Shown here one piece after another: positions 30,543 to 61,661 of a stretch of DNA of 64,000 bases. Each line of letters begins with the position of its first letter. Position 1 is the first letter of the stretch. The stretch comes from Thermoguttaceae bacterium. GTDB taxonomy: Bacteria; Planctomycetota; Planctomycetia; Pirellulales; Thermoguttaceae. The stretch is taken from the NCBI GenBank assembly GCA_017434455.1, contig JAFRFG010000046.1:1-64000 (forward strand), in the 5' to 3' direction. Under the pieces are notes generated by a model that saw nothing but the letters and a program-made list of their open reading frames with translations, did no database searches and had not been told where the DNA came from. A program made the position numbers and the translations under genes.

Positions 30543-30601
30543 TTCGGGCCTTTCTTGAGGGGAGAACATAGGGGGAACCGGCGGCTTACGGTTTTTAACG
30601 G

Positions 30602-34805: not shown

Positions 34806-34886
34806 CCGCTTTCTCTCCGCGCCGCGCCACCGCACTTCTTGGCGCGGCACTTCCCGAAAAAACATTCTCCCCAAGGAGTACGACCT

Positions 34887-38831: not shown

Positions 38832-38854
38832 CCTATCGAAAGTACAGAGTACCC

Positions 38855-41242: not shown

Positions 41243-41266
41243 AAGAAAGAGGATACGAAAGTACCG

Positions 41267-43672: not shown

Positions 43673-43708
43673 GTAAGATCGGACAGCAGGTAAGCAGGAT
43701 TGTTTCCG

Positions 43709-46099
43709 ATGAAAAAATTCCCCGCAGCCCGCGCGGTGTTTTTCGCGCTGTTTGTTTTGATTACCCTCCCACCCCTTGCCGCGGAAGAGATACTCCGCCT
43801 GGCGGACAACGGCGCGAGTGACTACACCGTTGTCCTCCCTGATCATCCCAGCGCGGTTCAAAAGACCGCCGCCGAGGAACTGGCCTCGTTTCTCGGTCAG
43901 GTCACCGGGGCCGAGTTTCCGATTCTCTCGCAAGAGCAGGCCAAAGATAAACAGAAGCTCCTGGTCATCGGTCCGGGAGAACTGTCGAAACAAATGCTCG
44001 CCTCGGCCGGCGCCGAGCCGGAGGAGACCATCGCCCAAGACGGGATCATCGTTCAGACGGTCGGCGGCAGTATTGTCTTCTCGGGGCATCGAGACCGCGG
44101 CCCGCTGTACGCGGTCTATACCTTTCTGGAGGATATCGTCGGCTGCCGATGGTGGACCGGTACCGAGTCGACCATCCCTTCGCGGCCGACGCTCGATATC
44201 GAGGCGGTTCACTTGCGCTATGCGCCGAAAGTCATTTCAAGGGAAGCGTATTATCGCGATCCTCTCGACGGCCGTGAGGGAGGAATCTTCTCCGCTCGGA
44301 TGAAGATGAACGGGCACTTCAATCCGGTACCCGCCGAATACGGCGGCCACATGCCGATCCTCTTCTGGGCCCATTCGTTCGAGCAGGTTCTTCCGCCGGA
44401 AAAATATTTCGAGGAACACCCCGATTGGTACTCGCTGGTCGACGGCCAAAGGAGAGGCGAGGGGCAATATCAGCTTTGCCTGACCAATCCGGAAATGAAG
44501 GCGGAGTTTATCCGCAACACCCTCACCGCCCTGCGGTCTAACCCCGATACGCGTATTGTCTCCGTCTCGCAAAACGACCGCGACGGCTGGTGCCAGTGCC
44601 CCGAGTGTCAAAAATTGGCGGAGGATAATCTCTCGCAGTCGGGACCGCTGATCACCTTCGTCAACGAGGTGGCCGAGGCGATCGAACAAGAGTTCCCCAA
44701 CGTTTTGGTCGAGACGCTCGCCTATAATCAATCACGCCCGGCGCCCGCCAAGGTTCGGCCGCGGGACAATGTTCTGATACGTCTTTGTACCGGCGGCAAT
44801 TCCCTCGTGATCCCCCTGGAAGAAGGGGGCCCCAATCAATCGCTCGCGGCGGTTATCGAGAGCTGGAGCGCGATCTCCAAGCAGCTTTACATCTGGGATT
44901 ACGTTACCAACTTCCACAACTATTTGCTCCCTCACCCCAACCTGCGGGTACTGGCTCCCAATATCCGCTTCTTTGTCAAAAACCACGCCATAGGGATCTT
45001 CGAGCAGGGGGACGCCGGCTGCTCGGCGGGGGACTTTGTCCGAATGCGCCATTGGGTACTCTCCAAACTTCTTTGGAACCCCTCCCTCGATCAAACGGCG
45101 CTGGAGGACCAATTTCTAAACGGATACTACTCTCCGCGGATCGCCGCGCTGTTTCGTCAGTACCTCGACGTTCTCCAACGCGGCGCGCTCCAGTCCGAAA
45201 TTCCGCCGAGCGGTTCACCGCAGAGCACCCAAGAATGGCTCAGCACCGAAACGCTTGTCGAGGCGACGAAGCTCATGGATCAAGCCATCGCCGCGGCGCG
45301 GGAGGACGAAGAGAATGATCCGATCCGTTTCGCGGGACTGACACGGAAGGTCACCCGTGAGTCGATCCCGATTCGATCCGTCTGGATCGATCAGTGGCGC
45401 GCCCGCGACGCGGAGATGGCCGTCGCCGGGATTCCCTCCCCCATCGCCTGTCCCATGATCGACTACCTTCACGAATTCGTTTCTCTGCTGCGGGAAAATC
45501 ACGTTGAATGGGTCCGAGAGGAATGGCAGGGGAAAGAGGAATTGGATCGGCGGCTTGCCGTCTTGGAACAACTGTTCGGCGCCCCGGCGGCCGAGCCGCC
45601 CGCGCAGGTCGAAGGGCTTCCGGCCGATTCCTGGTTCGACGTCCAGGAACCGTATTTCCGTCTGTCGGGGCTGGGGTATTGGGTCTTTCTCGAAGAGGAC
45701 CCGAACGCCTCAAACAAGCTGGCCGCCCGCATGCCGACCGACCATACCCAGTGGGCCGCCGCTTGGAACAGCGACCGCGCCGAGGCGCTTGTTTCGCCGG
45801 CGGGTACCGAACCCGACTCCGACGGCCGCCTTAGCGCGCGGGTACTTCTCTTCGCCCGATGTGACGCGCTCCCCCGCGGTGAGGATCGAGGCGCGATGGC
45901 TGTCGGTATTTATGACGAAACGGCCAAAGAAGGTCTCTTTACCCGAGTTCTCACGAGCGGTGAACTGGCCGGGAGTGATTACAAGCTCTTCGATCTCGGG
46001 ACTTTCCCCCTCGGGAAGGGCATCTTGATCTGGACCTCGCCGTTTGACCGGACCGTGCCCAACGTCTATATTGATCGTATCGTGGTTATTCGTCAGTGA
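43709..46099 (+). CDS. DUF4838 secreted protein, array copy 4
   Basis: 796 residues from the ATG at 43709; a TTG nine bases earlier is in frame but less likely. 36 bp after copy 3. Signal peptide MKKFPAARAVFFALFVLITLPPLAA. The Cys motif starts at Cys295 (SQNDRDGWCQCPECQKLAEDNLSQSG, with Arg after QND); Glu432 is present. The central segment RLCTGGNSLVIPLEEGG departs from the usual RLCTIENSFLTPLEEGG. It combines a class-A-type C-terminus (FLEEDPNASNKLAARMPTDHTQW), like copies 1 and 2, with a middle region more like copies 5-9. Confidence 0.85.
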   Translation: MKKFPAARAVFFALFVLITLPPLAAEEILRLADNGASDYTVVLPDHPSAVQKTAAEELASFLGQVTGAEFPILSQEQAKDKQKLLVIGPGELSKQMLASAGAEPEETIAQDGIIVQTVGGSIVFSGHRDRGPLYAVYTFLEDIVGCRWWTGTESTIPSRPTLDIEAVHLRYAPKVISREAYYRDPLDGREGGIFSARMKMNGHFNPVPAEYGGHMPILFWAHSFEQVLPPEKYFEEHPDWYSLVDGQRRGEGQYQLCLTNPEMKAEFIRNTLTALRSNPDTRIVSVSQNDRDGWCQCPECQKLAEDNLSQSGPLITFVNEVAEAIEQEFPNVLVETLAYNQSRPAPAKVRPRDNVLIRLCTGGNSLVIPLEEGGPNQSLAAVIESWSAISKQLYIWDYVTNFHNYLLPHPNLRVLAPNIRFFVKNHAIGIFEQGDAGCSAGDFVRMRHWVLSKLLWNPSLDQTALEDQFLNGYYSPRIAALFRQYLDVLQRGALQSEIPPSGSPQSTQEWLSTETLVEATKLMDQAIAAAREDEENDPIRFAGLTRKVTRESIPIRSVWIDQWRARDAEMAVAGIPSPIACPMIDYLHEFVSLLRENHVEWVREEWQGKEELDRRLAVLEQLFGAPAAEPPAQVEGLPADSWFDVQEPYFRLSGLGYWVFLEEDPNASNKLAARMPTDHTQWAAAWNSDRAEALVSPAGTEPDSDGRLSARVLLFARCDALPRGEDRGAMAVGIYDETAKEGLFTRVLTSGELAGSDYKLFDLGTFPLGKGILIWTSPFDRTVPNVYIDRIVVIRQ

Positions 46100-46115
46100 A
46101 AAAAGGGAAATACCG

Positions 46116-48485
46116 ATGAGGAGATACTCTTTCACGCGCGCCGCTTTTGCCGCGCTGACGCTGCTGGCGGCGATGCCGATTTTCGCCTCCGAGGGGACCT
46201 TGCGCCTCGCCGGCGACGGTGTGAGCGATTACAAGGTTGTCCTTCCCGAAAACCCAAGCGCCGTCCAGCGAACGGCAGCCGAGGAGTTGGCTTCATTCCT
46301 CGGCCAGGTCACGGGGGCGGTGTTTCCCATCATCTCGGAAGCAGAGGCGAAGGGTAAAGACAAGCTTCTGGTCATCGGTCCGGGGGAACTGTCGAAATCA
46401 CTGCTCGCCTCGGCCGGCGCCGAATCGGAAGAAACACTCTCTCAGGACGGCATCATCCTTTGGACGGTCGGCGGCAGTATTGTCTTCTCGGGCCACCGGG
46501 ACCGCGGCCCGCTTTACGCGGTCTATACCTTTCTGGAAGATACCGTCGGCGTCCGCTGGTGGACCAGTACCGAATCGACCATCCCGAAGCGGCCCGATCT
46601 TGAGGTTCCGACCCTCTCGCTGCGGTACGAGCCCGTCCTCATCTCGCGTGACGCCACTTACTTCGACCGCTATGGGGAGACGGGACCCATCTTTTGCGCC
46701 CGGAGGAAACTCAACGGTCACGGCAACGGCATCCCCCCCGAATACGGCGGGCGAATGGCCTTCTCGCTGTTTGTCCATACCTTCTACCCGATTCTTCCCC
46801 CAAAGCAATATTTCGACGATCACCCCGACTGGTACGCCCTGGTCGACGGCCAGCGCCGGCGCGAGAACGCGCAGCTGTGCCTGACCAATCCCGAGATGAA
46901 AGAGGAGTTTATCCGCAATACGCTGCGGATTATCGGGGAACACCCGGAATCAAAAATCATCTCGATCAGTCAGAACGACTGCGCCGGGTGGTGCCAGTGC
47001 CCCGAGTGCAAAAAGCTGGCGGAGGAAAACAAATCTCAGGCCGGGCCTCTGATCACCTTTGTCAACCAGGTCGCCGAAGCCGTCGAAAAGGAGCATCCCG
47101 ACGTGCTGGTCGAGACGCTCGCCTACAACGCTTCGCGCTTCGCTCCGGCCAACGTCCGCCCGAGGGATAATGTTATCATTCGCCTTTGCACGATCGAGTA
47201 TTCTTTCCTCACCCCGCTGGAAGAAGGGGGACGCAATCAATCGCTCGTGGAACAAATCGGCAAATGGAGCGCGATATCGAAACAGCTCTTCATCTGGGAT
47301 TACGTCACCAACTTCCATAACTACATGCTCCCGCATCCTAATCTGCAGGTGCTCTCCCCCAATATCCGCTTCTTTATTAAGAACAACGCCGTCGGGGTTT
47401 TGGAACAGGGAGACACCTGGTGCGCGGCGGGGGACTTTGTCCGGCTACGCTACTATCTTCTCTCCAAACTCCTTTGGGATCCGTCGCTTGACCAGCGCGA
47501 AGTCGAGAATGAGTTCTTAAACGGTTATTATTCGCCGAGTGTCGCCGCCGTTTTGCGTGAGTACCTCGATCGCGTCACCGAGTGCGCCGTCCGGTCAAAT
47601 ATCAACTTGCGCTGCTACATGGATACCGTCTATACCTGGCTCGACACACCGACCCTGGTTGAGTTAACCGCCTTGATGGATCGAACGATCGCCGCGGCGC
47701 GTGAAGACGAAGAGAAGGATCCGATCCGTTTTGCCGGCCTGACCGACAAGGTTCTGCGCGAGTCGATCCCTGTGCGTCTGGCGTGGCTTCGCGACTGGCC
47801 GATTCGCCAAGACGATCTGGCTCGGGAACAGATCCCCTCCCCTATCAAGGACGGGGCCGCCTATTACGAACAGTTTCGAGAACTGATAAAGCGGAATAAC
47901 GTCACCAGCGCCGTGGAAGGGGGAAATAAGTCGTTTCCGGCCTGGCTCGACGCGCTGGGGGGAAATTTCAAACCGGCACCGGTCCCCGATGAGGTGAAGG
48001 ACCTTGCCGCAGACACATGGGTGACTTTGGAAGAATGCCAGGTGAATTCCCCCAGCGACGTGTGGCCGTTTATCGTGGACGACAGCGCCGCGGAAAACGG
48101 CCGGGCGATAAAACTCCCGGGGAATCAGAACCAATGGGGAATCGGTTGGGATACCTACGCCGCGGGCCGTCTGCGCTCGATATCCGACAGCGGCGAAGGG
48201 GAGAACGGATTCTTTCCGGTTCGGATCCTCCTGCGCGTTCGATGCCAGGGGTTTGAACCGGACGACCAAGATGCCCTGATTGTTTCCGTCTATGACCTCG
48301 ATCAAATGCGGACCGTCTTCCGTAAACCGATCAAGGACTCGGAGCTGGTCTGGGACGGATACAAAACCATCGACCTCGGGAATATTTCGATAGGGATCAA
48401 TACCCGCTTGAAATTCACCCCGGCCGGGCGATCCGAGGGGGAGAAAAATTTCTTCATCGATCGAATGGTGATCATTCGTGAATAA
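46116..48485 (+). CDS. DUF4838 secreted protein, array copy 5
   Basis: 789 residues from the ATG at 46116 (AAGGGAAA upstream); 16 bp after copy 4. Signal peptide MRRYSFTRAAFAALTLLAAMPIFAS. The Cys motif starts at Cys293 (QNDCAGWCQCPECKKL) and Glu430 is present (VLEQGD). The middle region has the SLVEQIGKWS form. The substrate-side segment RRKLNGHGNGIPPEYGGRM resembles copies 3 and 7. The C-terminal domain is class B but with an altered front part (ECQVNSPSDVWPFIVDD) lacking the aromatic patch of its neighbours. Confidence 0.85.
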   Translation: MRRYSFTRAAFAALTLLAAMPIFASEGTLRLAGDGVSDYKVVLPENPSAVQRTAAEELASFLGQVTGAVFPIISEAEAKGKDKLLVIGPGELSKSLLASAGAESEETLSQDGIILWTVGGSIVFSGHRDRGPLYAVYTFLEDTVGVRWWTSTESTIPKRPDLEVPTLSLRYEPVLISRDATYFDRYGETGPIFCARRKLNGHGNGIPPEYGGRMAFSLFVHTFYPILPPKQYFDDHPDWYALVDGQRRRENAQLCLTNPEMKEEFIRNTLRIIGEHPESKIISISQNDCAGWCQCPECKKLAEENKSQAGPLITFVNQVAEAVEKEHPDVLVETLAYNASRFAPANVRPRDNVIIRLCTIEYSFLTPLEEGGRNQSLVEQIGKWSAISKQLFIWDYVTNFHNYMLPHPNLQVLSPNIRFFIKNNAVGVLEQGDTWCAAGDFVRLRYYLLSKLLWDPSLDQREVENEFLNGYYSPSVAAVLREYLDRVTECAVRSNINLRCYMDTVYTWLDTPTLVELTALMDRTIAAAREDEEKDPIRFAGLTDKVLRESIPVRLAWLRDWPIRQDDLAREQIPSPIKDGAAYYEQFRELIKRNNVTSAVEGGNKSFPAWLDALGGNFKPAPVPDEVKDLAADTWVTLEECQVNSPSDVWPFIVDDSAAENGRAIKLPGNQNQWGIGWDTYAAGRLRSISDSGEGENGFFPVRILLRVRCQGFEPDDQDALIVSVYDLDQMRTVFRKPIKDSELVWDGYKTIDLGNISIGINTRLKFTPAGRSEGEKNFFIDRMVIIRE

Positions 48486-48495
48486 AGGAACCTTT

Positions 48496-50907
48496 ATGTT
48501 AAGAACCGCAATGACAAAGAACAGACTTCTTTCCGTGATCCTGCCGCTTTTGGCCATGATCGTATCCGTTGCCCTCGGCGATGAGGGAACCGCGGAGAAA
48601 CTGACCCTCTGCACCGACGGCGCGACCGACTACACCATTGTTCTGCCCGATTCGCCGACGGAGGTTCAAAAGACCGCCGCCAATGAGCTGGCGTCTTTCT
48701 TGAACCGGGTCACGGGGGCGGACTTTCCGATTCTCTCGGAAGGGATGATTGAGGAACAGGCCAGGGACAAGGCGAAACTCCTGGTCATCGGTCCGGGGGA
48801 ACTGTCGAAGAAGCTGCTCGCCTGCGTCGGCGCCGAGCCGGAAGAGACAATCGGTTACGACGGAATCATCATCGAGCCGGTCGGCCGGTCGGTCGTCTTC
48901 TCGGGCCACCCCAAGCGGGGGACGCTTTACGCGGTTTACACTTTCTTGGAAGATACCGTCGGCATCCGCTGGTGGACCAGCACCGAATCGACCATTCCTA
49001 AGCGGCCGACGCTCAAGGCGGCCATCACGCCGACGCGCTACGCGCCGAAGGTCATCTCGCGCGAGGCGTTCTACCGCGATTCGGTGTTCAGCGAAAACGC
49101 GGGGGTCTTTTCCGCCCGGATGAAGATGAACGGACAGAACAACCCGATCCCCCCCGAGTACGGCGGCCATGAGACCTTCTACTTTTTTGGCCACTCCTTC
49201 TACATCATTCTTCCGGCGGACAAATATTTTGATGAGCATCCCGATTGGTATCCCCTGATCAACGGCAAGCGAACCAGGGGGAATGTACAGCTGTGCCTGA
49301 TGAACCCCGAGATGAGAAAGGAGTTTATCCGCAACACCCTGCAGATCCTCGAGGAGCATCCGGAGGTAAATAACATATCGATCTGTCAGGACGATTGCGC
49401 CGGATGGTGCCAGTGTCCCGAATGTCAAAAGTGCGTCGATGAGAACGGCTCTCAATCCGGACCGCTGATCGATTTCATCAACGAGGTCGCCGAGGCCGTC
49501 GAGAAGGAACATCCCGACGTCATCGTCAACACCTTCGCCTATCAGGCCACACGTTTCGCCCCCTCGAAGGTTCGGCCCAGAGACAATGTTCTCATTCGGC
49601 TTTGCACCATCGAGAACTCCTTCCTGACCCCCTTGGAAGAGGGGGGACTCAACCAGTCGCTCGTGGAGAATATCGAGAAGTGGAGCGCCATCTCCAAGCA
49701 ACTCTTCGTCTGGGACTACGTCACCGACTTCCACTGTTATATGCTCCCTCATCCGAATCTTCACGTACTTGGTCCCAACATTCGTTTCTTCGTGAAAAAC
49801 AACGTCGTCGGCATCTTCGAACAGGGGGACGTTTTCTGTGCGGCGGGAGACTTTGTTCGGCTTCGCAACTGGGTGATCTCCAAGCTTCTGTGGAATCCCG
49901 ACCTCGATCAAAGAGCGCTGGAAAATGAGTTTTTAAACGGCTACTATTCGCCGAACGTGAGACCACTTTTGCGCCAGTATCTTGATCTTCTCACCAAACG
50001 CGCCGTGGAGAAGAATATCCATCTGGGCTGCTTTCTGGATTCGGCCTACGGCTGGCTCGACACACCGACGCTGGTGGAGGCGACGAACCTCATGAATCGG
50101 GCGATCGCCGCGGCACGTGACGACGAAAAACACTCTCCGGAACGTTTCGCCGGTCTTGCCGATAAGCTCCAGCGTGAATCGATCCCCGTTCACCTCGCGT
50201 GGCTGAGCGAGTGGCCCCTTCGCCAGGCGGATCTTCTCTCCAACAATATCCCCTCCCCCGTCGCTGAGGGAGAAAAGTATTACGAAGAGTACCTCGCGCT
50301 GCTGGAGAAAAACCATGTCACCAGCGCCGTGGAAGGGGGAGAGGCGAACTTTGGCAATTGGCTGGAGAGTCTTCACGAGATCGTTCGATCCAAGTCGGTC
50401 ATTCCCGAGGAAGTCAAAGACCTCCCCCGCGACACGTGGTACAACCTGGAAGAATTCGCCATGCCTCTGGGCGCTGTGGGCGAGCTCTCTTTCCGCGAGG
50501 ACGACGCCGCGGCGGACAACGGCCGGGCGGTTCGTCTGCCGGGGAACCATCACGAGTGGGAGGTCGGCTGGGCACCCTCCCCGATTTTTCAGCTTCGTTC
50601 CCCGTCCGCAGCCGCTCCCGATGAAGAGGGGTTTGTCAGCGCGCGGATGATCCTGCGGGCCCGCTACCAGGCGGTCGAAGGGGACGACAGCGACGCGCTT
50701 GAAATCGGCATCTGGGATTTTGGCCGGACGTGCAATACCTTCCATCGTACGCTCAAAAGCTCCGAACTGGGGAAAGAAGAGTATAAGACAATCGACCTGG
50801 GGATTGTAAAAATCGGGACAACGTCTCATTTTTGGATCGCCCCGACCGATCATCCCGAGGCGGTGCAAAACCTCTATATCGACCGTGTGGTGTTTATCCG
50901 CCAGTAG
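48496..50907 (+). CDS. DUF4838 secreted protein, array copy 6
   Basis: 803 residues from the ATG at 48496, with AAAGGA six bases upstream; an earlier in-frame GTG overlaps the previous stop codon. The gap to copy 5 is only 10 bp, the tightest in the array. Signal peptide within MLRTAMTKNRLLSVILPLLAMIVSVALG. The Cys motif starts at Cys305 with an altered lead (SICQDDCAGWCQC, Asp for the usual Asn) and an extra Cys in CQKCVDENG. Glu442 is conserved. Class B C-terminal domain (FREDDAAADNGRAVRLPGNHHEW). Confidence 0.85.
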   Translation: MLRTAMTKNRLLSVILPLLAMIVSVALGDEGTAEKLTLCTDGATDYTIVLPDSPTEVQKTAANELASFLNRVTGADFPILSEGMIEEQARDKAKLLVIGPGELSKKLLACVGAEPEETIGYDGIIIEPVGRSVVFSGHPKRGTLYAVYTFLEDTVGIRWWTSTESTIPKRPTLKAAITPTRYAPKVISREAFYRDSVFSENAGVFSARMKMNGQNNPIPPEYGGHETFYFFGHSFYIILPADKYFDEHPDWYPLINGKRTRGNVQLCLMNPEMRKEFIRNTLQILEEHPEVNNISICQDDCAGWCQCPECQKCVDENGSQSGPLIDFINEVAEAVEKEHPDVIVNTFAYQATRFAPSKVRPRDNVLIRLCTIENSFLTPLEEGGLNQSLVENIEKWSAISKQLFVWDYVTDFHCYMLPHPNLHVLGPNIRFFVKNNVVGIFEQGDVFCAAGDFVRLRNWVISKLLWNPDLDQRALENEFLNGYYSPNVRPLLRQYLDLLTKRAVEKNIHLGCFLDSAYGWLDTPTLVEATNLMNRAIAAARDDEKHSPERFAGLADKLQRESIPVHLAWLSEWPLRQADLLSNNIPSPVAEGEKYYEEYLALLEKNHVTSAVEGGEANFGNWLESLHEIVRSKSVIPEEVKDLPRDTWYNLEEFAMPLGAVGELSFREDDAAADNGRAVRLPGNHHEWEVGWAPSPIFQLRSPSAAAPDEEGFVSARMILRARYQAVEGDDSDALEIGIWDFGRTCNTFHRTLKSSELGKEEYKTIDLGIVKIGTTSHFWIAPTDHPEAVQNLYIDRVVFIRQ

Positions 50908-50933: not shown

Positions 50934-52799
50934 ATGAAAAAATCCCCCGTGACCTTCGCTGCCCTCTGCGCGCCGCTGGTTTTGGCCGTCTTCCCGCTTC
51001 TTGCCGAGGAACAGACGTTTCGCCTGGCCAGCGGCGGCATAACCGATTACAGCATCGTCCTCCCCGAGACACCGACGGCGGTTCAGCAGACCGCCGCCGA
51101 GGAGCTGGCTTCGTTCCTAAACCAGGTCACGGGGACCGATTTTCCGATCCTCTCGGAAAGCCAAATTAAGGAAAAAGCCAAGGATAAACAGAAGCTCCTG
51201 GTCATCGGGCCGGGGAAGCGGTCGAAACAATTGCTCGCCTCCGTCGGCGCCGAGCCGGAAGAGACTCTTGGCCAGGATGGAATTATCCTTCACACGGCGG
51301 GTCAATCGATTGTTTTCTCCGGGCATCCCGACCGTGGGATGCTCTACGCTGTCTACACGTTCTTAGAAGATTATGTCGGGTGCCGATGGTGGACCCGAAC
51401 CGAATCGACCATCCCCAACATTCAACGGCTGGATATCACCCCGCCGGCTCTTCGCTATCAGCCGACCTTTTTTTGGCGAGACACCAGTTACCTGGATGTT
51501 CGTCAAGGGGAAGAGGGGGGTATCTTTTGCGCCCGGAGAAAAATCAACGGTCCCCCGGTTCCCCCGCAATTCGGCGGATATGTGACAATCTGTCTGGGCA
51601 GTCATACCTTCTGCCTGATTCTCCCGCCGAAGGACTTTTTCGACGAACACCCCGACTGGTACGCCTTGGTCGATGGTCGGCGGCTGAAAGACAATGGACA
51701 GCTCTGCCTGACGAATCCGGAGATGAAACAGGAGTTTATACGCAGCGTCCTGCGTATCCTCGACGAAAATCCGGAAACAAAAATCATTTCGATCAGCCAG
51801 AACGACTGCGGCGGGTGGTGTCAGTGTCCCGAGTGTCAAAGACTCGTCGACGAGAACGGTTCGCAGTCGGGGCCGCTGATCACCTTTGTCAATGATGTCG
51901 CCGAGGCGGTGGAAAAAGAGCATCCCGACGTCGTGGTCGAGACACTCGCCTATCTGTCAACCCGTTTTGCCCCCGCCAAGGCCCGGCCGCGCGACAATGT
52001 CTTGATTCGTCTTTGTGCCATCGGGAACTCCTTTCTAACCCCAGCGGAGGAAGGGGGGAGCAATCAATCGCTCGTGGAGCAGATCGAAAAGTGGAGCGGC
52101 ATCGCCAAACAGCTCTTCGTCTGGGATTACGTCACTAACTTCAGCAATTATATGCTCCCCCACCCAAATCTTCAGGTACTGGCGCCCAATATCCGCTTCT
52201 ACGCCCGGAACCATGCCGTCGGCATCTACGAGCAGGCGGACAGCTGGTGCGCGGCGGGCGACTTCGTCCGACTGCGCTGCTACCTCATTTCCAAATTGAT
52301 GTGGAACCCGTCGCTCGACCAGCGGGAAATTGAGAACGATTTTCTGACCGGCTATTACTCGCCCACTGTAGGAGCGCTGCTGCGCCAATATCTCGACCTT
52401 ATCACCAAGACCGCCGTTCGTTCCGACATCAATCTCAGCTGCTATATGGAGACGACGTACGACTGGCTCGATACAGCCGCCTTGGTCAAGGCCACGGAGC
52501 TGATGAACCGAGCGATCGCCGCGGCCGAGGAAGATCAGCGGCGCGAGCCGGAACGATTCGCCGGTCTGGCCGACAAGGTTCGGCGTGAGTCGATCCCCAT
52601 TCGTCTGGCCTGGCTGCTCGACTGGAAAAAACGTCAGGACGATTTGACCCGGCAGAATATTCCCTCCCCCGTCCCCGGCGGCGAGGAATATTTTGAGGAG
52701 TTCCGAACGCTCTTGGAAAAGAACAACGTCGATTGCGCCAAAGAAGGCAAGACAGCGCAATTCCAAGAGTGGCTCGATAATCTTCACAAGGAACTGTAA
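50934..52799 (+). CDS. DUF4838 secreted protein, array copy 7, short form without C-terminal domain
   Basis: 621 residues from the ATG at 50934; 26 bp after copy 6. Signal peptide MKKSPVTFAALCAPLVLAVFPLLA. The N-terminal domain, DUF4838 (Cys296 motif, Glu433 in IYEQAD, where Ala replaces the usual Gly) and helical region are complete. The protein stops after EWLDNLHKEL, exactly where other copies enter the C-terminal sandwich domain, about 180 residues short. There is no frameshift to restore the domain. The N-terminal domain ends with an unusual TRTESTIPNIQRL. Confidence 0.85.
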   Translation: MKKSPVTFAALCAPLVLAVFPLLAEEQTFRLASGGITDYSIVLPETPTAVQQTAAEELASFLNQVTGTDFPILSESQIKEKAKDKQKLLVIGPGKRSKQLLASVGAEPEETLGQDGIILHTAGQSIVFSGHPDRGMLYAVYTFLEDYVGCRWWTRTESTIPNIQRLDITPPALRYQPTFFWRDTSYLDVRQGEEGGIFCARRKINGPPVPPQFGGYVTICLGSHTFCLILPPKDFFDEHPDWYALVDGRRLKDNGQLCLTNPEMKQEFIRSVLRILDENPETKIISISQNDCGGWCQCPECQRLVDENGSQSGPLITFVNDVAEAVEKEHPDVVVETLAYLSTRFAPAKARPRDNVLIRLCAIGNSFLTPAEEGGSNQSLVEQIEKWSGIAKQLFVWDYVTNFSNYMLPHPNLQVLAPNIRFYARNHAVGIYEQADSWCAAGDFVRLRCYLISKLMWNPSLDQREIENDFLTGYYSPTVGALLRQYLDLITKTAVRSDINLSCYMETTYDWLDTAALVKATELMNRAIAAAEEDQRREPERFAGLADKVRRESIPIRLAWLLDWKKRQDDLTRQNIPSPVPGGEEYFEEFRTLLEKNNVDCAKEGKTAQFQEWLDNLHKEL

Positions 52800-52861
52800 A
52801 AACAGAATCTCTCTGTTCCGAACGGAATGATACTTTCGGCGATACCCGGAGAAAAACACCG

Positions 52862-54805
52862 ATGAGAAGAATCCCTCCCGCGCGGGCAGCCATCATCGCG
52901 GCCGCGGCGATGTTTGTCCTGACAATCATTGCCCTGCCGCTGTTTGCCGATGAAGCGGCACTTCATCTGGCCGATCGCGGCGCGACCGACTACACGATTG
53001 TCCTTCCCGATACGCCGTCACCGGTTCAGGAAACGGCCGCCGGTGAGCTGGCTTCGTTCTTAAAACAGGTCACGGGGGCCGATTTTCCGATCCTCTCCGA
53101 AAGTCAGGTTGAGGAAAAAGCCAAGGATAAAGAAAAGCTCCTGGTCATCGGGCCTGGGGATCTGTCGAAACGGCTGCTCGCCTCCGTCGGCGCCGAGCCG
53201 GAAGAGACGATCGCTCAAGATGGGATCATTATCCAGCCGGTCAGAGAGTCGATCGTCTTTTCAGGCCACCCACAGCGCGGAACGCTCTACGCGGTTTATA
53301 CGTTCCTGGAAGATACTGTCGGCTGCCGCTGGTGGACCAGCACCGAGTCGACCATCCCGCGGCGGCCGACGCTCGAGGTGAACATCGCCCCGACGCGATA
53401 CGCGCCGAAGGTGACGCTGCGGGAGGAGTATTACCTCGATCCTCATAACGGGGATGAAGGGGGAATCTTTTCGGCCCGCGCCAAAATGAACGGGTGCCTC
53501 CACCCCATCCCCCCCGAATTCGGCGGCCATGAGATATTCTGCTTCTTTGTCCACTCCTTCTATTCGATTCTTCCGCCGGAGGACTATTTCGACGAGCATC
53601 CCGAGTGGTACGCGCTGGTCGACGGCCAGCGTCGAAGTGACGGGGCGCAGCTGTGCCTGACCAATCCCGAGATGAAGCGACAGTTCATCCGCAGCGCGCT
53701 GCGTTTCCTCAAAGAAACCCCCGGCGCGGGAATCATCTCGGTCAGCCAGAACGACTGCGGCGGCTGGTGCCAGTGCCCCGAGTGCCAAAAGTTAGCCGAC
53801 GAGAACAACTCCCAGGCCGGGCCGCTGATCGTGTTTGTCAACGAGGTCGCCGAGGCGATCGAAAAAGAGTTCCCCGATGTTTTCGTCGAGACGCTCGCCT
53901 ACCAAGAGACCCGTTTCGCGCCGACGAAGGTCAGGCCGCGCGACAATATTCTGATTCGGCTGTGCACCATCGAAAACTCTTTCCTTACCCCGCTGGAGGA
54001 AGGGGGACCGAATCAATCGCTCGTGGAGAATATCGAAAAGTGGAGCGCGATTTCCAAGCAGCTTTATATATGGGATTACGTCACCAACTTTTCCGATTAC
54101 CTGCTCCCCCACCCGAACCTTCAGGTATTGGCGCCCAATATTCGTTTCTTCGTCCGAAACCGCGCCGTCGGGATCTATGAGGAGGGGGACGGGGAATGTC
54201 CCGTGGGGGATTTTGTTCGGCTCCGCGGCTGGGTGATCGCTAAACTTCTTTGGAATCCCGACCTCGATCAGCGCCGGTTGGAGGATGAGTTTTTAACCGG
54301 CTACTACTCCCCGAACGTGGGGAAGATTTTACGTCAATACCTCGACGTCCTCACGCAAAGCGCGCTGAGCGCCGAGGTTTATTTGTCCTGTTTCCGCGAT
54401 CAGGCGGGAGACTGGCTCAGAAGCGAGGCGCTTGTCCAGGCGACGGCGCTGATCGAGCGGGCGATCGCCGCCGCCGAAGAAGACGAACGGGCCGATCCGG
54501 TCCGCTTCGCCGGTTTGGTGAAGAAAGTCCTCCGGGAATCGATCCCCATTCGATATGTCTGGATCCGCGAATGGCGGGACTATATCGCCGCGTCGGAGGA
54601 AGGGAAGAGCCGCTTGCCCATCGATCGCGAAAAGATCGATTTCTGCCGAGAAATCAAAACGCTGCTCGAGGAAAATGGTGTTTCCTTCAGCCGCGGGGTG
54701 GATGGACCGGAGGAATCCGATCGATGGCTCGAACAAATCGACGAGTCGATCGCCGAGATGGAAGAGTATCTCGATACCCTAAACGCCCCGCCTGCGCGCC
54801 GGTGA
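52862..54805 (+). CDS. DUF4838 secreted protein, array copy 8, short form without C-terminal domain
   Basis: 647 residues; 62 bp after copy 7. Signal peptide MRRIPPARAAIIAAAAMFVLTIIALPLFA. The Cys motif starts at Cys303; the acid is Glu440, in EEGD instead of EQGD. The helical region is like copies 1, 2 and 4 (WLRSEALVQATALIERAIAAAEEDE), unlike its neighbours. The end (MEEYLDTLNAPPARR) replaces the C-terminal domain. The LYIWDY segment uses the rare ATA codon. The 85-bp gap that follows holds ATGATTCGCGAAC, which resembles the MIRE coding end of full-length copies. Confidence 0.85.
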   Translation: MRRIPPARAAIIAAAAMFVLTIIALPLFADEAALHLADRGATDYTIVLPDTPSPVQETAAGELASFLKQVTGADFPILSESQVEEKAKDKEKLLVIGPGDLSKRLLASVGAEPEETIAQDGIIIQPVRESIVFSGHPQRGTLYAVYTFLEDTVGCRWWTSTESTIPRRPTLEVNIAPTRYAPKVTLREEYYLDPHNGDEGGIFSARAKMNGCLHPIPPEFGGHEIFCFFVHSFYSILPPEDYFDEHPEWYALVDGQRRSDGAQLCLTNPEMKRQFIRSALRFLKETPGAGIISVSQNDCGGWCQCPECQKLADENNSQAGPLIVFVNEVAEAIEKEFPDVFVETLAYQETRFAPTKVRPRDNILIRLCTIENSFLTPLEEGGPNQSLVENIEKWSAISKQLYIWDYVTNFSDYLLPHPNLQVLAPNIRFFVRNRAVGIYEEGDGECPVGDFVRLRGWVIAKLLWNPDLDQRRLEDEFLTGYYSPNVGKILRQYLDVLTQSALSAEVYLSCFRDQAGDWLRSEALVQATALIERAIAAAEEDERADPVRFAGLVKKVLRESIPIRYVWIREWRDYIAASEEGKSRLPIDREKIDFCREIKTLLEENGVSFSRGVDGPEESDRWLEQIDESIAEMEEYLDTLNAPPARR

Positions 54806-54890
54806 GAATCCTTTTTTTCGGCGCGTCCCCAGCGGTAGAATACTTAACGAGAAAATGAATAATGATTCGCGAACATCAGGAGCCATACTG

Positions 54891-57290
54891 ATGAAACTAT
54901 CCCCGCTTAAAAACGCCGCGGCCGCCTTGGTGATGGCGCTGGTGACCTTTGCGATTTTCGCCGAGGAAGAAACGCTTCGCCTGGCCGACGGTGGGGTGAC
55001 CGACTACAGCGTTGTCCTCCCCGAAACGCCGACGGCGGTTCAGCGGACCACGGCCGGGGAGCTGGCGTCGTTCCTAAACCAAGTGACCGGGGCGACCTTT
55101 CCGATTCTCTCGGAAAGTCAGGTGGAAGAACAGGCCAAGGATAAAGAAAAGCTCCTGGTCATCGGCCCGGGTACGCTGTCGAAACGGCTGCTCGCCTCGG
55201 TCGGTGCCGAGCCGGAAGAGTCGATCGGCCGGGACGGGATCATTATCCAGCCGGCAGGAGAGTCGATCGTCTTTTCCGGCCACCCGCGCCGTGGACCGCT
55301 GTACGCCGTCTATACGTTCCTGGAAGATTGTGTCGGCTGCCGCTGGTGGACCAGTACCGAGTCGACCATCCCCGAGCGGCCGACGCTCGATATCGAGGTA
55401 CCCCAAACCCGATACGCGCCGAAGGTGATCTCGCGCGAATCGTTCTGCCTGGACGCGCGCCAGGGAAACGCCGGGGGAATCTTCTCCGCCCGGATGAAGA
55501 TGAACGGGCATTACAACCCCGTTCCCCTCGAGTACGGCGGACACGAGCCGTTCTGTCTGTTTGTCCATTCCTTCTATCCGATCCTTCCCCCGAAGGACTA
55601 TTTCGCCGAGCATCCCGACTGGTACGCCTTGGTCGACGGCCAGCGCCAGGACAAGAACGCGCAGCTGTGCCTGACCAATCCCGAGATGAAGGAGCAGTTT
55701 ATCCGCAACGCGCTGCGCTTCCTCGACGATGATCCCGACGCGAGAATCATCTCGATCAGTCAGAACGACTGCGGCCGGTGGTGCCAGTGCCCCGAGTGTC
55801 AAAAGCTTGTCGATGAAAACGACTCCCAGGCCGGTCCGCTGATCACCTTTGTCAACGACGTCGCCGAGGCGATCGAGAAAGAGCGCCCCGACGTTTTGGT
55901 CGAGACACTCGCCTATCAGGAGTCCCGCTTCGCGCCGAAGGTGGTCCGTCCGCGGGACAATGTGATCATTCGGCTGTGCACGATCGAGAATTCCTTTCTT
56001 ACCCCGCTGGAAGAGGGGGGACGCAATCAATCGCTCCTCGAGCATATTGAAAAATGGAGCGCCATCTCCAAGCAGCTCTTCATCTGGGATTACGTCACCA
56101 ACTTCATCAACTATATGCTCCCGCACCCGAACCTTCAGGTCCTGGGGCCGAACATTCGCTTCTTCGTCAGAAACAAAGCCGTCGGAATCTTCGAGCAGGG
56201 GGACAACTTTTGCCCGGCGGGGGACTTTGTCCGGATGCGCAACTGGGTGATCTCTAAGCTCCTGTGGAACCCGGATCTGGATCAGCGCCGGCTGGAAGAT
56301 GAGTTCTTAAACGGCTACTACTCCCCCAAGGTGGGGGCGATTCTGCGCCGGTATCTCGATCTTTTGACCGACCGCGCGGTCAAATCCGACGTCAATCTGC
56401 GCCTCTATATGGAGTCGGCCTTTGGCTGGCTCGATACGGAAACGCTGATCGAAGCGACTAAGCTCATGGATCAGGCCCTCGCCGCGGCGCGCGAAGACGA
56501 AGAACTTTCTCCGGAGCGCTTCGCCGGCCTGGCCGATAAAATCGAGCGCGAATCGATACCGGTTCATCTGGCCTGGCTGCGCGACTGGCCGAACCGCCGG
56601 ATCGATCTTGCCGCGCGCAATCTCCCTTCCCCCGTCGGTGATATCGAGGACTATTTTCAAGAGTACCGGGCGCTTCTGGAAAAGTACCGCGTCGACTGCG
56701 CCGCGGAAGGGAGAAAGGCCATCTTCGGGGAATGGCTCGATGAGCTTCACGAATCGCTCTCGACCTGCGTCGTCGTTCCGGATGAGGTCAAGGATCTCGC
56801 GAACGACACATGGCTCTGCGTGGAGGAATTCAATGTGAGACTTGGCGGCCAAGGGAAGCAATCCTTCCTGGAAGACGACGCCGAGGCGGGGAACGGCAAG
56901 GCGATTCGTCTTGCGGGTGATCACCACGATTGGTCCATCCAGTGGGATGTCTCCGGACTGGAACGCCTGCGCTCAGGGGCCGGCGCGCCTCCCGACGAGA
57001 GGGGCTATGTCAAAGCGCGGATCCTTCTGCGCGCCCGGTGCGACGCCGCCGATGGGGACGACGGGGACGCCTTGAGTATTGGGGTCTACGATAAGGATAC
57101 GAAAGGGCGCGTTTTCCTGAAGACACTGAAGACATCCGAGCTCAGCCGGGACGGGTACGAAATCGTCGACCTCGGGGTTCTTCCCGTCGAAGGTTCCGCC
57201 ACCGCCACGCTTTTTTGGTTCGCTCCTACCGAGCGTCCCGACGCGGTACAGAATATTTATATCGACCGGATGGTCCTCATCCGAGAATAA
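54891..57290 (+). CDS. DUF4838 secreted protein, array copy 9
   Basis: 799 residues from the ATG at 54891, eight bases after CAGGAG. Signal peptide MKLSPLKNAAAALVMALVTFAIFA. The Cys motif starts at Cys298 (QNDCGRWCQC, Arg in place of the second Gly); Glu435 is present. The middle region has the SLLEHIEKWS form. Full-length, with class B C-terminal domain (FLEDDAEAGNGKAIRLAGDHHDW). It is the last member of the LRLADGG N-terminal class; the next three copies have another N-terminal class. Confidence 0.85.
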   Translation: MKLSPLKNAAAALVMALVTFAIFAEEETLRLADGGVTDYSVVLPETPTAVQRTTAGELASFLNQVTGATFPILSESQVEEQAKDKEKLLVIGPGTLSKRLLASVGAEPEESIGRDGIIIQPAGESIVFSGHPRRGPLYAVYTFLEDCVGCRWWTSTESTIPERPTLDIEVPQTRYAPKVISRESFCLDARQGNAGGIFSARMKMNGHYNPVPLEYGGHEPFCLFVHSFYPILPPKDYFAEHPDWYALVDGQRQDKNAQLCLTNPEMKEQFIRNALRFLDDDPDARIISISQNDCGRWCQCPECQKLVDENDSQAGPLITFVNDVAEAIEKERPDVLVETLAYQESRFAPKVVRPRDNVIIRLCTIENSFLTPLEEGGRNQSLLEHIEKWSAISKQLFIWDYVTNFINYMLPHPNLQVLGPNIRFFVRNKAVGIFEQGDNFCPAGDFVRMRNWVISKLLWNPDLDQRRLEDEFLNGYYSPKVGAILRRYLDLLTDRAVKSDVNLRLYMESAFGWLDTETLIEATKLMDQALAAAREDEELSPERFAGLADKIERESIPVHLAWLRDWPNRRIDLAARNLPSPVGDIEDYFQEYRALLEKYRVDCAAEGRKAIFGEWLDELHESLSTCVVVPDEVKDLANDTWLCVEEFNVRLGGQGKQSFLEDDAEAGNGKAIRLAGDHHDWSIQWDVSGLERLRSGAGAPPDERGYVKARILLRARCDAADGDDGDALSIGVYDKDTKGRVFLKTLKTSELSRDGYEIVDLGVLPVEGSATATLFWFAPTERPDAVQNIYIDRMVLIRE

Positions 57291-57301
57291 GGAGAACATC
57301 G

Positions 57302-59179
57302 ATGTTCAAGACAGCAAAAATCACGGCATTAGCCATCATCCTCCCGCTTGCTTTGGCAAGCGTGTCAAACCTCTTCGGCGTCGAGGCGCCGGCGCTGACG
57401 CTCTTCGGCGAGGGGGGCTCCCCCTGCCCGATCGTTCTTCCCGATCAGCCCAGCGCCGTTCAAAAGACCGCCGCCGAGGAACTGGCATCGTTCCTCCGTC
57501 AGGCGACCGGAGCGGAGTTTCCGATCATCAGTGAAAGCGCCGCCGATGATCGGGGGGTGAACCTTGTCATTGGCCCGAGCGAACTGTCGAAGAAACTGCT
57601 TGCCTCGGCCGGCGCCGAGCCGGAAGATACCATCACTCAAGACGGCATCATCCTCCAGACGGCCGGCAACAGTATTGTCCTTTCCGGTCACCCGCGGCGC
57701 GGGCCGCTGTACGCCGTCTATACGTTCCTGGAAGATTATGTCGGCATCCGATGGTGGACCAGCACCGAATCGTTCATTCCGAAGCTGACCTCTTTGGAAG
57801 TTCCCCTTTTGGCGACCCGCTACGCGCCGAGGGTGATCTCGCGTGAGACGTACTATCTGGATCCCCACAACGGGCTTGAGGGAGCCGTCTTCTCGGCGCG
57901 GACGAGGACCAACGGGAACTTCAACGAAATCCCCGAAGAATTCGGCGGGCACGAGCGTTTCTATCTGTTCGCCCACTCCTTCTACCCCACCCTTCCGCCG
58001 GAGAAATATTTCGACGAGCATCCCGAATGGTACTCTTTGGTCGACGGTAAACGAACTTACGACAGGGCGCAGCTGTGCCTGACTAACCCCGAGATGAAGA
58101 AACAGTTCATCCGCAATACGCTGAGGATTCTCGACGAGAACCCGGGAATAAAAATCATCTCGGTCAGTCAAAACGACTGCGGCGGCTGGTGCCAGTGCCC
58201 CGAGTGTCAAAAGCTCAGCGACGAGAACGGTTCCCAGGCCGGGCCGCTGATAGCGTTTGTCAATGAGGTCGCCGAGGCGGTCGAGGAAAAGTATCCCGAC
58301 GTTTTTGTCGAGACACTCGCCTACCAGGATTCCCGCTTCGCGCCGGCGAAGGTCAGGCCCCGCGACAACGTTCTGATTCGGCTGTGCTCGTTTGAGTGTT
58401 CCTACCTGACGCCGCTGGCCGACGGAGGGGCGAGCAACGGTTCGTTCGTCGACTGCATTGAAAAGTGGAGCGCCATCTCCAAACAGCTTTATATATGGGA
58501 CTATGTCACTAACTTTCCAGAACTGATGCTCCCGCATCCGAATATCCAGGTGCTGGGACCGAATATAAGTTTCTTCGTCCGGAACAAAGCCATCGGTATC
58601 TTCGAGCAGGGTGACGCCGACTGCTGGGCCGGGGACTTTATCCGTCTGCGCAACTGGGTAATCAGCAAGCTCCTCTGGAACCCGGATCTCGATCAGCGGC
58701 AACTGGAAAACGAGTTCTTAAGCGGCTACTACTCCCCCCGGGTCGCGGCCGTCCTGCGCGAGTATCTCGACCTTCTCAGCGACCGCGCCGTTCGATCCGG
58801 TATAAATCTTTATAATGAAATGGGGACGACCACCGGCTGGCTCGATACGGAAACTCTCCTTAAGGCGACCGACCTGATAAACCGGGCGATCGACACCGCC
58901 CGCGAGGACGAGGCGTCCGATCCGGAGCGTTATGCCGGGTTGGTGAAAAAGGCCGAGCGCGAATCGGTTCCGATCCGGTACGTCTGGCTTTTGGACGGCA
59001 AAGCTCACCTTCCCTATCTCGAAGAATTGGGGGCCGACTCGCCCCTGTCCGGCGATATGAACGCCTACTATGAAAAGTTCAAAGAGATCCTCGCCGAAAA
59101 CCATGTCACCGCGAACAACGCCTGGCGATGCGGCGGGTTCGAGCAATGGCTCGACGCGCTGCGGCCGAGCGCGCCCTAA
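57302..59179 (+). CDS. DUF4838 secreted protein, array copy 10, short form without C-terminal domain
   Basis: 625 residues from the ATG at 57302, after AAGGAGAA; 11 bp after copy 9. Signal peptide MFKTAKITALAIILPLALASVSNLFG, nearly the same as copy 11. First of the second N-terminal class (LTLFGEGGSPCPIVLP). The Cys motif starts at Cys297; Glu435 is present. The middle region has the FVDCIEKWS form of copies 1 and 2. It ends at EQWLDALRPSAP, where copies 11 and 12 continue into the C-terminal domain. LYIWDY uses ATA. The 85-bp gap after it contains TTTATCAGAGAA, resembling a FIRE coding end. Confidence 0.85.
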   Translation: MFKTAKITALAIILPLALASVSNLFGVEAPALTLFGEGGSPCPIVLPDQPSAVQKTAAEELASFLRQATGAEFPIISESAADDRGVNLVIGPSELSKKLLASAGAEPEDTITQDGIILQTAGNSIVLSGHPRRGPLYAVYTFLEDYVGIRWWTSTESFIPKLTSLEVPLLATRYAPRVISRETYYLDPHNGLEGAVFSARTRTNGNFNEIPEEFGGHERFYLFAHSFYPTLPPEKYFDEHPEWYSLVDGKRTYDRAQLCLTNPEMKKQFIRNTLRILDENPGIKIISVSQNDCGGWCQCPECQKLSDENGSQAGPLIAFVNEVAEAVEEKYPDVFVETLAYQDSRFAPAKVRPRDNVLIRLCSFECSYLTPLADGGASNGSFVDCIEKWSAISKQLYIWDYVTNFPELMLPHPNIQVLGPNISFFVRNKAIGIFEQGDADCWAGDFIRLRNWVISKLLWNPDLDQRQLENEFLSGYYSPRVAAVLREYLDLLSDRAVRSGINLYNEMGTTTGWLDTETLLKATDLINRAIDTAREDEASDPERYAGLVKKAERESVPIRYVWLLDGKAHLPYLEELGADSPLSGDMNAYYEKFKEILAENHVTANNAWRCGGFEQWLDALRPSAP

Positions 59180-59264
59180 GCGCGTGTACCGCGGGGAAAC
59201 GATTGTTGTTTACCAGTGAAAAAGAATCTGTTTATCAGAGAAAATAGAATAAGGAGAAGCATTG

Positions 59265-61661
59265 ATGTTCAAGGCAGCTAAGTTCGCGGCATTAGCCATC
59301 ATCCTCCCGCTTGTTTTGGCAAGCGTGTCAAACCTGTACGGCGCTGAGGCGCGGACGCTCACCCTCTTCGGCGAGGGGGTCTCCCCCTCCCCGATCGTTC
59401 TTCCCGAGGAGCCGAGCGCCGTACAAAAGACCGCCGCCGAGGAACTGGCCTCGTTCCTCGGCCAAGTGACCGGAGCGGAATTTCCGATCATCGGCGAAAG
59501 CGCCGCCGACCAGCGGGGAGTGAATCTCGTCATCGGCCCGAGCGCCCTGTCGAAGAAGCTCCTGGCCGCCGCCGGCGCCGAGCCGGAAGAGACCATCGCT
59601 CAAGACGGTATCATTATTCACAGCGTGGGAAACAGCATTGTCTTTTCCGGCCACCCGCAGCGCGGGCCGCTGTACGCCGTCTATACGTTCCTGGAAGATG
59701 TCGTCGGCATTCGATGGTGGACCAGCACCGAATCGTTTATTCCCCACAAGACGCGGCTGGAAATATCTCCCCTGGCGATCCGCTACGCGCCGCGAATCAT
59801 CACGCGCGAGGCGTTTTACCTTGACCCGCGCGATGGACAGGCCGGAGGCATCTTCTCCGCACGAGTCAAGGCAAACGGCAATTCCAACCCTATTCCCCCC
59901 GAGTACGGCGGACACGAGACATTCTGTTTTTTTGTCCATTCTTTCTACCCGATTCTTCCCCCGGAAAAATATTTTGACGAGCATCCCGAATGGTATTCTC
60001 TGGTCGACGGGGTGCGGACGCACGACCGGGCGCAGCTGTGCCTGACCAACCCCGAGATGAAGAAGGAGTTCATCCGCAACGCGCTGCGTTTCCTCAAAGA
60101 CGACCCCGACGCGAGAATCATCTCGATCAGCCAGAACGATTGGGGGGGCTGGTGCCAGTGCCCCGAATGTCAAAAACTCGTCGATGAGAACGGTTCTCAG
60201 GCCGGACCGCTGATCACCTTTGTCAACGATGTCGCCGAAGCGATCGAGAAAGAACATCCCGACGTCTTCGTCGAGACGCTCGCCTACAGCGATTCCCGCT
60301 TCGCGCCGAAGAAGGTCAAGCCCCGCGACAACGTTCTGGTTCGGCTGTGCTCGATCGAATACTCTTTCCTCACTCCCCTGGCCGAGGGGGGGACTTATAA
60401 TCAGTCGTTTGTCGACTGCCTCGAGAAATGGAGCGCCATCGCCAAACAGCTCTACATCTGGGACTACGTCACCGACTTCAGCAACTACATGCTCCCGCAT
60501 CCGAACCTTCAGGTGCTCGCTCCCAATATTCGGTTCTTCGTGAAGAACCGTGTCATCGGTGTCTTCGAGCAGGGAGACACCTACTGTACGGCGGGGGACT
60601 TTGTCCGTCTGCGCAACTGGGTGATCTCCAAGCTGCTCTGGAACCCGGACCTCGATCAGCGCCAATTAGAAGAGGAGTTCTTAAACGGCTATTATTCCCC
60701 GAAGGTCGGTGCCATTTTGCGCGAGTATCTCGACGTTCTTACCGAAAGCGCGCTGCGCAGCGACGTCAATCTGCGCTGCTATATGTATTCGACCACCGAT
60801 TGGCTCGACACGACATCGCTTCTGAAGGCGACCGACCTGATGAACCGGGCCATCGACGCCGCCCGGGAGGATGAAGCGTCCGACCCCCGGCGCTATGCCG
60901 GTTTGGTGAAAAAGCTCGAGCGCGAATCGATCCCGATCCGGTACGTTTGGCTTTTGGACGGCCGCTCTCACCTCCCCTTCCTCGAACGCCTGGGGATCGA
61001 CTCGCCGCTGTCCTGCGATAGGAACGCGTACTACGAACAGTTCAAAGAGCTTCTCGCCGAAAACCAAGTCGTCACGGCCAATGAGTGGCAGGACCCGAAT
61101 TTCGAGAAATGGCTCGACTCACTGAAGCCGCGCCCGATCCCCAGCGTCCGCTCGTATCCTCCCCAGGTGAAAGAGCTTCCGAATGACTGCTGGATCGATA
61201 CCCACGAGGACGACTGGATGACTGCCGGAATCGGGGAATGGATCTTCTCCGAGGACGATCCGAAGAGCTGCGACGGCCGGACGATCCGCATCGCCGGCAA
61301 CCACCATCAGTGGATCATTATGAAGGAAACCGGCGCAATGAAACTCCTGAATTCGCCTTCCGGCAGCCCCCTCGACGAAGAGGGGCATTTCCGCGGGCGT
61401 ATCCTCCTTTCCGCCCGCTGCGACACGACTGAGGGGGCCGAGGGCGAGGCGCTGGATGTCGGCATCTACGACTGGAAAAGCAAAAAAGGAATCTACGGCC
61501 GCGCTTTGACCGTCGATGAGCTCGCCGGAGACGACTACAAGACAATCGACCTGGGGGAAGTGGAACTGGGGAACAACCTTCAGTTCTGGGTCGCCCCGAA
61601 GAACCGCCCCGAGGAGGTTCCGAATATCTACGTCGACCGGATCATCTTCATCAGACAGTAA
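59265..61661 (+). CDS. DUF4838 secreted protein, array copy 11
   Basis: 798 residues from the ATG at 59265, eight bases after AAGGAG. Signal peptide MFKAAKFAALAIILPLVLASVSNLYG. Second N-terminal class (LTLFGEGVSPSPIVLP). The Cys motif starts at Cys297 with Trp after QND (as in copy 2); Glu435 is present. Full-length with a third type of C-terminal domain (class C: FSEDDPKSCDGRTIRIAGNHHQWIIMKETG). Overall closest to copy 12, with long nearly identical nucleotide stretches, pointing to a recent duplication. Confidence 0.85.
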   Translation: MFKAAKFAALAIILPLVLASVSNLYGAEARTLTLFGEGVSPSPIVLPEEPSAVQKTAAEELASFLGQVTGAEFPIIGESAADQRGVNLVIGPSALSKKLLAAAGAEPEETIAQDGIIIHSVGNSIVFSGHPQRGPLYAVYTFLEDVVGIRWWTSTESFIPHKTRLEISPLAIRYAPRIITREAFYLDPRDGQAGGIFSARVKANGNSNPIPPEYGGHETFCFFVHSFYPILPPEKYFDEHPEWYSLVDGVRTHDRAQLCLTNPEMKKEFIRNALRFLKDDPDARIISISQNDWGGWCQCPECQKLVDENGSQAGPLITFVNDVAEAIEKEHPDVFVETLAYSDSRFAPKKVKPRDNVLVRLCSIEYSFLTPLAEGGTYNQSFVDCLEKWSAIAKQLYIWDYVTDFSNYMLPHPNLQVLAPNIRFFVKNRVIGVFEQGDTYCTAGDFVRLRNWVISKLLWNPDLDQRQLEEEFLNGYYSPKVGAILREYLDVLTESALRSDVNLRCYMYSTTDWLDTTSLLKATDLMNRAIDAAREDEASDPRRYAGLVKKLERESIPIRYVWLLDGRSHLPFLERLGIDSPLSCDRNAYYEQFKELLAENQVVTANEWQDPNFEKWLDSLKPRPIPSVRSYPPQVKELPNDCWIDTHEDDWMTAGIGEWIFSEDDPKSCDGRTIRIAGNHHQWIIMKETGAMKLLNSPSGSPLDEEGHFRGRILLSARCDTTEGAEGEALDVGIYDWKSKKGIYGRALTVDELAGDDYKTIDLGEVELGNNLQFWVAPKNRPEEVPNIYVDRIIFIRQ

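Follow-up and report, generated by a model that had tools for sequence, protein, structure and literature searches.

In the excerpts of the published descriptions that we draw on (PMC3879575, PMC9063842), the xylan alpha-1,2-glucuronidases of family GH115 consist of an N-terminal alpha/beta domain, a TIM barrel, a helical bundle and a C-terminal beta-sandwich. In one of them, BoAgu115A, the cleft of each protomer is lined by its partner's C-terminal domain, and removing that domain abolished activity (PMC3879575, excerpted part). The proteins discussed here are predicted to have the same domain order; in contrast to BoAgu115A, which by that account needs its C-terminal domain, some of them have lost theirs, repeatedly, in nature.

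These proteins belong to the DUF4838 family (PF16126), for which a limited literature search found no published function. Long and short forms occur both in the family and in the array described below. The other genomes searched hold between 0 and 16 PF16126 matches, mostly on separate contigs, whereas here 13 copies of mixed length stand in tandem. That tandemly duplicated genes can lose an accessory domain several times over is known. In this case the products of several separate losses stand beside intact forms within a single row of genes, and the domain that they lack matches in position the essential domain of GH115, structurally the closest characterised family.

The DUF4838 array and the domain missing from its short copies

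The window analysed is a 64-kb stretch at the start of a 193 kb contig from a planctomycete genome of 3.8 Mb. Thirteen DUF4838 genes are transcribed from the plus strand from position 36447 onward (Table 1), nine of them long (789-803 aa) and four, copies 7, 8, 10 and 13, short (621, 647, 625 and 653 aa). All seven array copies scanned with Pfam scored above the curated cut-off for DUF4838, and a genome-wide search with PF16126 matched all 13, twelve of these as whole hits of 314-335 bits (cut-off 26.6). Copy 13 was matched in two pieces (203 + 116 bits) because of a stretch of about 25-30 extra residues in its barrel region, around PRTRKIDQTERTGFEIAYLPQDSDGK. A GH67 N-terminal-like domain was found in six of the seven scanned copies, in three of them above the Pfam cut-off. 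The array products are probably secreted, glycoside-hydrolase-like proteins.

Table 1. Features of the DUF4838 array and its surroundings (positions in the window unless stated otherwise)
Feature	Coordinates	Strand	Remarks
GH97 gene	28575-30569	-	just ahead of the GH28-like and DUF4838 rows
GH28-like genes (three, tandem)	31755-33224, 33330-34805, 34839-36350		immediately upstream of the array
Copies 1-6	36447-50907	+	full length (789-803 aa)
Copy 7	50934-52799	+	short, 621 aa, lacks C-terminal domain
Gap 7	52800-52861	+	62 bp
Possible relic in gap 7	about 52802-52846	+	resembles ...QN.Y.DRM... of copy 9; ambiguous
Copy 8	52862-54805	+	short, 647 aa, lacks C-terminal domain
Gap 8	54806-54890	+	85 bp
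Putative relic of old coding end in gap 8	about 54807-54873	+	SPF.R.VP.V..Y....IR[QE]; best match copy 4
Copy 9	54891-57290	+	full length, 799 aa
Segment of copy 9, 3' part	56781-57287	+	used for fold modelling of the C-terminal domain
Copy 10	57302-59179	+	short, 625 aa, lacks C-terminal domain
Gap 10	59180-59264	+	85 bp
Possible relic in gap 10	about 59190-59242	+	R.E....Y...R..FIRE; best match copy 12
Copy 11	59265-61661	+	full length, 798 aa
Copy 12	61694-64090	+	full length, 798 aa; window ends at 64000
Copy 13	G000:C15:64103-66064 (= L011 4104-6065)	+	short, 653 aa; just beyond the window

The row of three GH28-like genes upstream (weak Pfam scores, one of the three above cut-off) is followed directly by the DUF4838 row, making two tandem families in succession; a GH97 gene on the opposite strand precedes both.

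An earlier note on this DNA held that copies 7, 8 and 10 lack the C-terminal domain, that they end at the same domain boundary and that the longest gaps follow them. The open frames and coordinates check out: all three stop in the linker behind the helix ...WLD.L... of the helical domain, and about 170 residues are missing from the C-terminus. The gaps after copies 1-12 measure 23, 24, 36, 16, 10, 26, 62, 85, 11, 85, 32 and 12 bp, in agreement with the claim that those of 62, 85 and 85 bp are the longest and the others span 10-36 bp. The end of copy 8 lies some 20 residues beyond those of copies 7 and 10, and the terminal sequences of the three differ from one another. Copies 10 and 13 have the end CTGCGGCCGAGCGCGCC..TAAGCGC in common, which is absent from copies 11 and 12. 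The common part comprises the last codons and the stop; the DNA after it gave p 0.65 in a local test and p 0.054 when anchored at the stop, both against shuffles. From this same truncated end, and from their pairing in the tree below, we conclude that one event truncated both.

No Pfam family matched the C-terminal domain (56718-57287 scanned). AlphaFold2, using 11 sequences, modelled it as a beta-sandwich with a pLDDT of 80.6, to which the nearest structures in VIA-align are CBM35 3zm8 (Z 11.2, rmsd 2.7, 123 aligned) and 2w47 (Z 11.0). CBM6 modules are also near, with other jelly rolls close behind (VIA-align; Foldseek), and identity to the CBM-type structures among the matches listed is 6-14%. 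The lost domain is accordingly described here as a predicted CBM35/CBM6-like beta-sandwich, resembling such modules in its predicted fold and differing from them in that it has no sequence match to a CBM family. The beta-sandwich domains of Cry proteins and other jelly-roll domains score alike, so that no function can be read from the fold.

The full-length model (pLDDT 70.5) gave tied scores with GH84, GH115 and GH67 chains, at Z 11-12 and an rmsd often above 10. Its domain order agrees with GH115, at an rmsd to 4c90 of 19.4 and with residues 145-226 of the model under pLDDT 50. A search of this genome with the GH115 Pfam model PF15979 gave no match up to an E of 10, and a PDB profile match to GH115 reaches an E of only 0.23, over residues 29-185. 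Judged by profile, the array proteins are not GH115.

The long gaps behind the short copies

The whole is best explained, with a probability of about 0.78, by tandem duplication followed by at least three internal deletions that left decaying, untranslated ends. The 13 copies would descend by duplication from an ancestor with four parts (alpha/beta N-domain, TIM barrel, helical domain and CBM35-like beta-sandwich). Internal deletion, an ordinary mechanism, would then have fused the linker behind the helical domain to coding sequence about 13-20 codons ahead of the old stop; the new reading frame would meet a stop immediately after the junction, and what was left of the end would persist outside translation as a decaying spacer, with the next gene's ribosome-binding region still in it. 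Since the kept end carries that region, such deletions would account for the greater length of these gaps and for the downstream genes being intact. The exact breakpoints are those we infer; the 3' end may have been retained since it protects the ribosome-binding site of the next gene, and a common 5' boundary at the domain boundary would be expected if half a sandwich were harmful.

Relics of the lost coding end were sought in the gaps with scores set against dinucleotide shuffles; the p values, which come from several variants of these tests, are uncorrected. Taken jointly, gaps 7, 8 and 10 are more similar to the full-length ends than shuffled sequence is (DNA, p 0.0017; frame-aware, p 0.012), the opposite of what the earlier note had named as grounds for abandoning its proposal. 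Gap 8 ranged from p 0.003 to 0.031 over all test sets: 0.004 for local DNA, 0.020 against the last 513 bp of the domain (a signal from the coding end itself), 0.003/0.031 when anchored, 0.023/0.017 for coding sequence only, and 0.030 and 0.020 when frame-aware. The frame-aware match covers about 20 codons, beginning directly at the new stop, and its best partner is a member of the clade that holds copy 8. Gap 10 does not rise above shuffles in local DNA (p 0.11) or coding-only tests (0.21/0.16); it does so when anchored with the ribosome-binding stretch included (0.020/0.004) and when frame-aware (0.007-0.045), with a best partner from copy 10's own clade. Gap 7 gave p 0.13 for local DNA, 0.012/0.002 anchored and 0.042/0.022 coding-only; its frame-aware scores were not above shuffles (p 0.19-0.73). 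For the three gaps together, the best partner belongs to the short copy's own clade in 3/3 cases when frame-aware (p 0.038) and in 1/3 at the DNA level (p 0.67).

As controls we took 13 stretches of 85 bp upstream of other genes in the window, including the start of copy 1, whose top scores were 34 (frame-aware) and 15.5 (DNA). The frame-aware score of gap 8 (41) exceeds all 13 and its DNA score (15.5) ties with one; gap 10 ties with two when frame-aware (34) and is within the control range for DNA (11.5); gap 7 is low when frame-aware (24) and second for DNA (14.0). A stretch of 90 bp taken behind copy 13, ahead of an unrelated gene, was mostly non-significant, and reached p 0.036 and 0.040 once each at a position that makes no sense for a relic; single p values near 0.04 therefore carry little weight. 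Among 13 short copies from other parts of the family whose downstream DNA was read, several lead directly into other genes or hairpins.

Relics in the gaps are, on these comparisons, supported and not proven: credible in gap 8, suggestive in gap 10 and ambiguous in gap 7. The letters quoted in the earlier note for gaps 8 and 10 are present as given. Its claim that both preserve an old coding end fares unevenly, the stretch in gap 8 being longer than proposed and that in gap 10 standing out only in frame-aware comparison, which makes the case weaker than stated. The nucleotide alignment that it suggested, of gap DNA with full-length ends, bears out gap 8, and gap 10 only if the ribosome-binding stretch is included.

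It is possible, though we think it unlikely, that the reading frame was first cut short at the domain boundary, by a frameshift or a nonsense mutation, and that many small deletions then eroded the remainder. The putative relics contain frameshifts and small gaps, as decaying DNA would, and such a history would look alike at present; what argues against it is the length of the gaps, 62-85 bp for a domain of about 500 bp, together with the comparison of gaps 7 and 10 with its last 513 bp, which detected nothing of the domain's middle (p 0.83 and 0.17). We are more doubtful still that the long gaps are regulatory spacers, holding internal promoters or terminators, whose likeness to a coding end arose by chance. 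Some upstream controls do reach equal relic scores and gap 8 contains a run of seven T, but a scan of gaps 7, 8 and 10 for sigma-70 type consensus sites revealed nothing promoter- or terminator-like, and the joint relic test speaks against chance.

An in-frame ATG upstream of copy 9, at 54855, falls within gap 8, and the relic there could therefore be translated (54855-54890), adding 12 residues ahead of the likely signal peptide of copy 9.

Separate losses of the C-terminal domain

An IQ-TREE phylogeny of the 13 copies, built on 576 columns of the part shared by long and short forms, places the short copies in separate clades. Copy 10 pairs with 13 (100/99) and adjoins 11 and 12; copy 7 groups with 3 and 5 (99/98), within {3,5,6,7,9} (100/99); and copy 8 adjoins {1,2,4} with moderate support only (84/91). 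Forcing the short copies into one clade, the outcome that would have spoken for a single old lineage in the earlier note, is 201 log units worse and rejected (AU p 4e-56), as are a clade of 7 and 8 (p 0.0014) and one of 8, 10 and 13 (p 1.2e-5). The minimum number of domain changes on this tree is three. A tree of the C-terminal domain groups {1,2,4}, {3,5,6,9} and {11,12}, matching the clades of the N-terminal part; the domain was therefore inherited along with the genes.

The wider family was sampled through the best matches of genome searches, 69 proteins (the 13 array copies and 56 from other places), of which three fragments were left out; the remaining 66 were placed in a FastTree phylogeny and 64 were scored. 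The C-terminal domain is present in 33 of the 64 scored tips and the short form occurs in 31. By parsimony the cheapest history has the domain at the root, 12 losses and no gains, several of the nodes beneath that count being weak. The direction of change, given by parsimony and the matching trees, is from long to short. These phylogenies give good support to a minimum of three losses within the array, in copy 7, in copy 8 and in the ancestor of 10 and 13, and the AU tests, the C-domain tree and the 12-loss parsimony agree with the earlier proposal of loss from full-length ancestors on separate occasions.

The reverse history, in which the array began with short copies and the full-length ones gained the domain several times, might draw on the commonness of short forms in the family. 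We judge it very unlikely, as the C-domain tree repeats the N-part clades, a loss-only history is as cheap as the cheapest with the domain present at the root, and gap 8 holds a likely relic. That copies 7, 8, 10 and 13 all go back to a single short ancestor, multiplied by duplication or by gene conversion, is most improbable, even with the same boundary at all short ends and the one event common to 10 and 13: for whole genes the AU tests rule it out, and copies 7, 8 and 10 have unlike terminal sequences.

Selection on the short copies and comparison with a close relative

The array also occurs in one close relative, G005 (RUG14274), where copies 1, 2, 3, 6 and 7 lie on two contigs; its copy 7 reaches residue 545, at the contig end, short of the domain boundary. 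Copy 7 is 97% identical to this orthologue, with a dN/dS of 0.25 over 545 codons. The corresponding values are 0.165 for copy 2, 0.135 for copy 6, 0.26 for copy 3 and, with very few changes, 0.54 for copy 1. Of the columns invariant in long copies (sets of eight), copies 7, 8 and 10 keep a fraction of 0.958-0.961, compared with 0.869-0.995 for each long copy by the same measure. From the kept columns and the dN/dS values the short copies look functional, apparently under purifying selection and free of pseudogene marks. Both genomes have the same gap sequences between copies 1 and 2, 2 and 3, and 6 and 7, a match that supports the assembly order at those places.

Since removal of the domain abolishes activity in GH115, either it may be dispensable here or short and long copies may cooperate. 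It would be a long shot that they do so as mixed dimers, a long copy lending its beta-sandwich to a short partner by analogy with GH115. If this were true, neighbouring genes of the row would supply the part that a short copy lacks, so that its loss would be tolerated or favoured, and combining different copies would broaden the substrate range. The array amounts to a natural experiment on the role of the C-terminal domain, and raises the question of what a GH115-like C-terminal domain does if enzymes lose it so often.

Two further copies differ from their counterparts in G005 in an unusual manner. Copy 3 (41267-43672) is only 79.6% identical in protein sequence to its counterpart in L061 (contig 74), compared with 96-99% for copies 1, 2, 6 and 7, and the adjoining gap is nevertheless identical; gene conversion or replacement of one member is possible. 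Copy 1 (36447-38831) shows a synonymous difference from L061 of 0.7%, as against 5-12% for copies 2, 6 and 7, possibly reflecting recent exchange or odd conservation.
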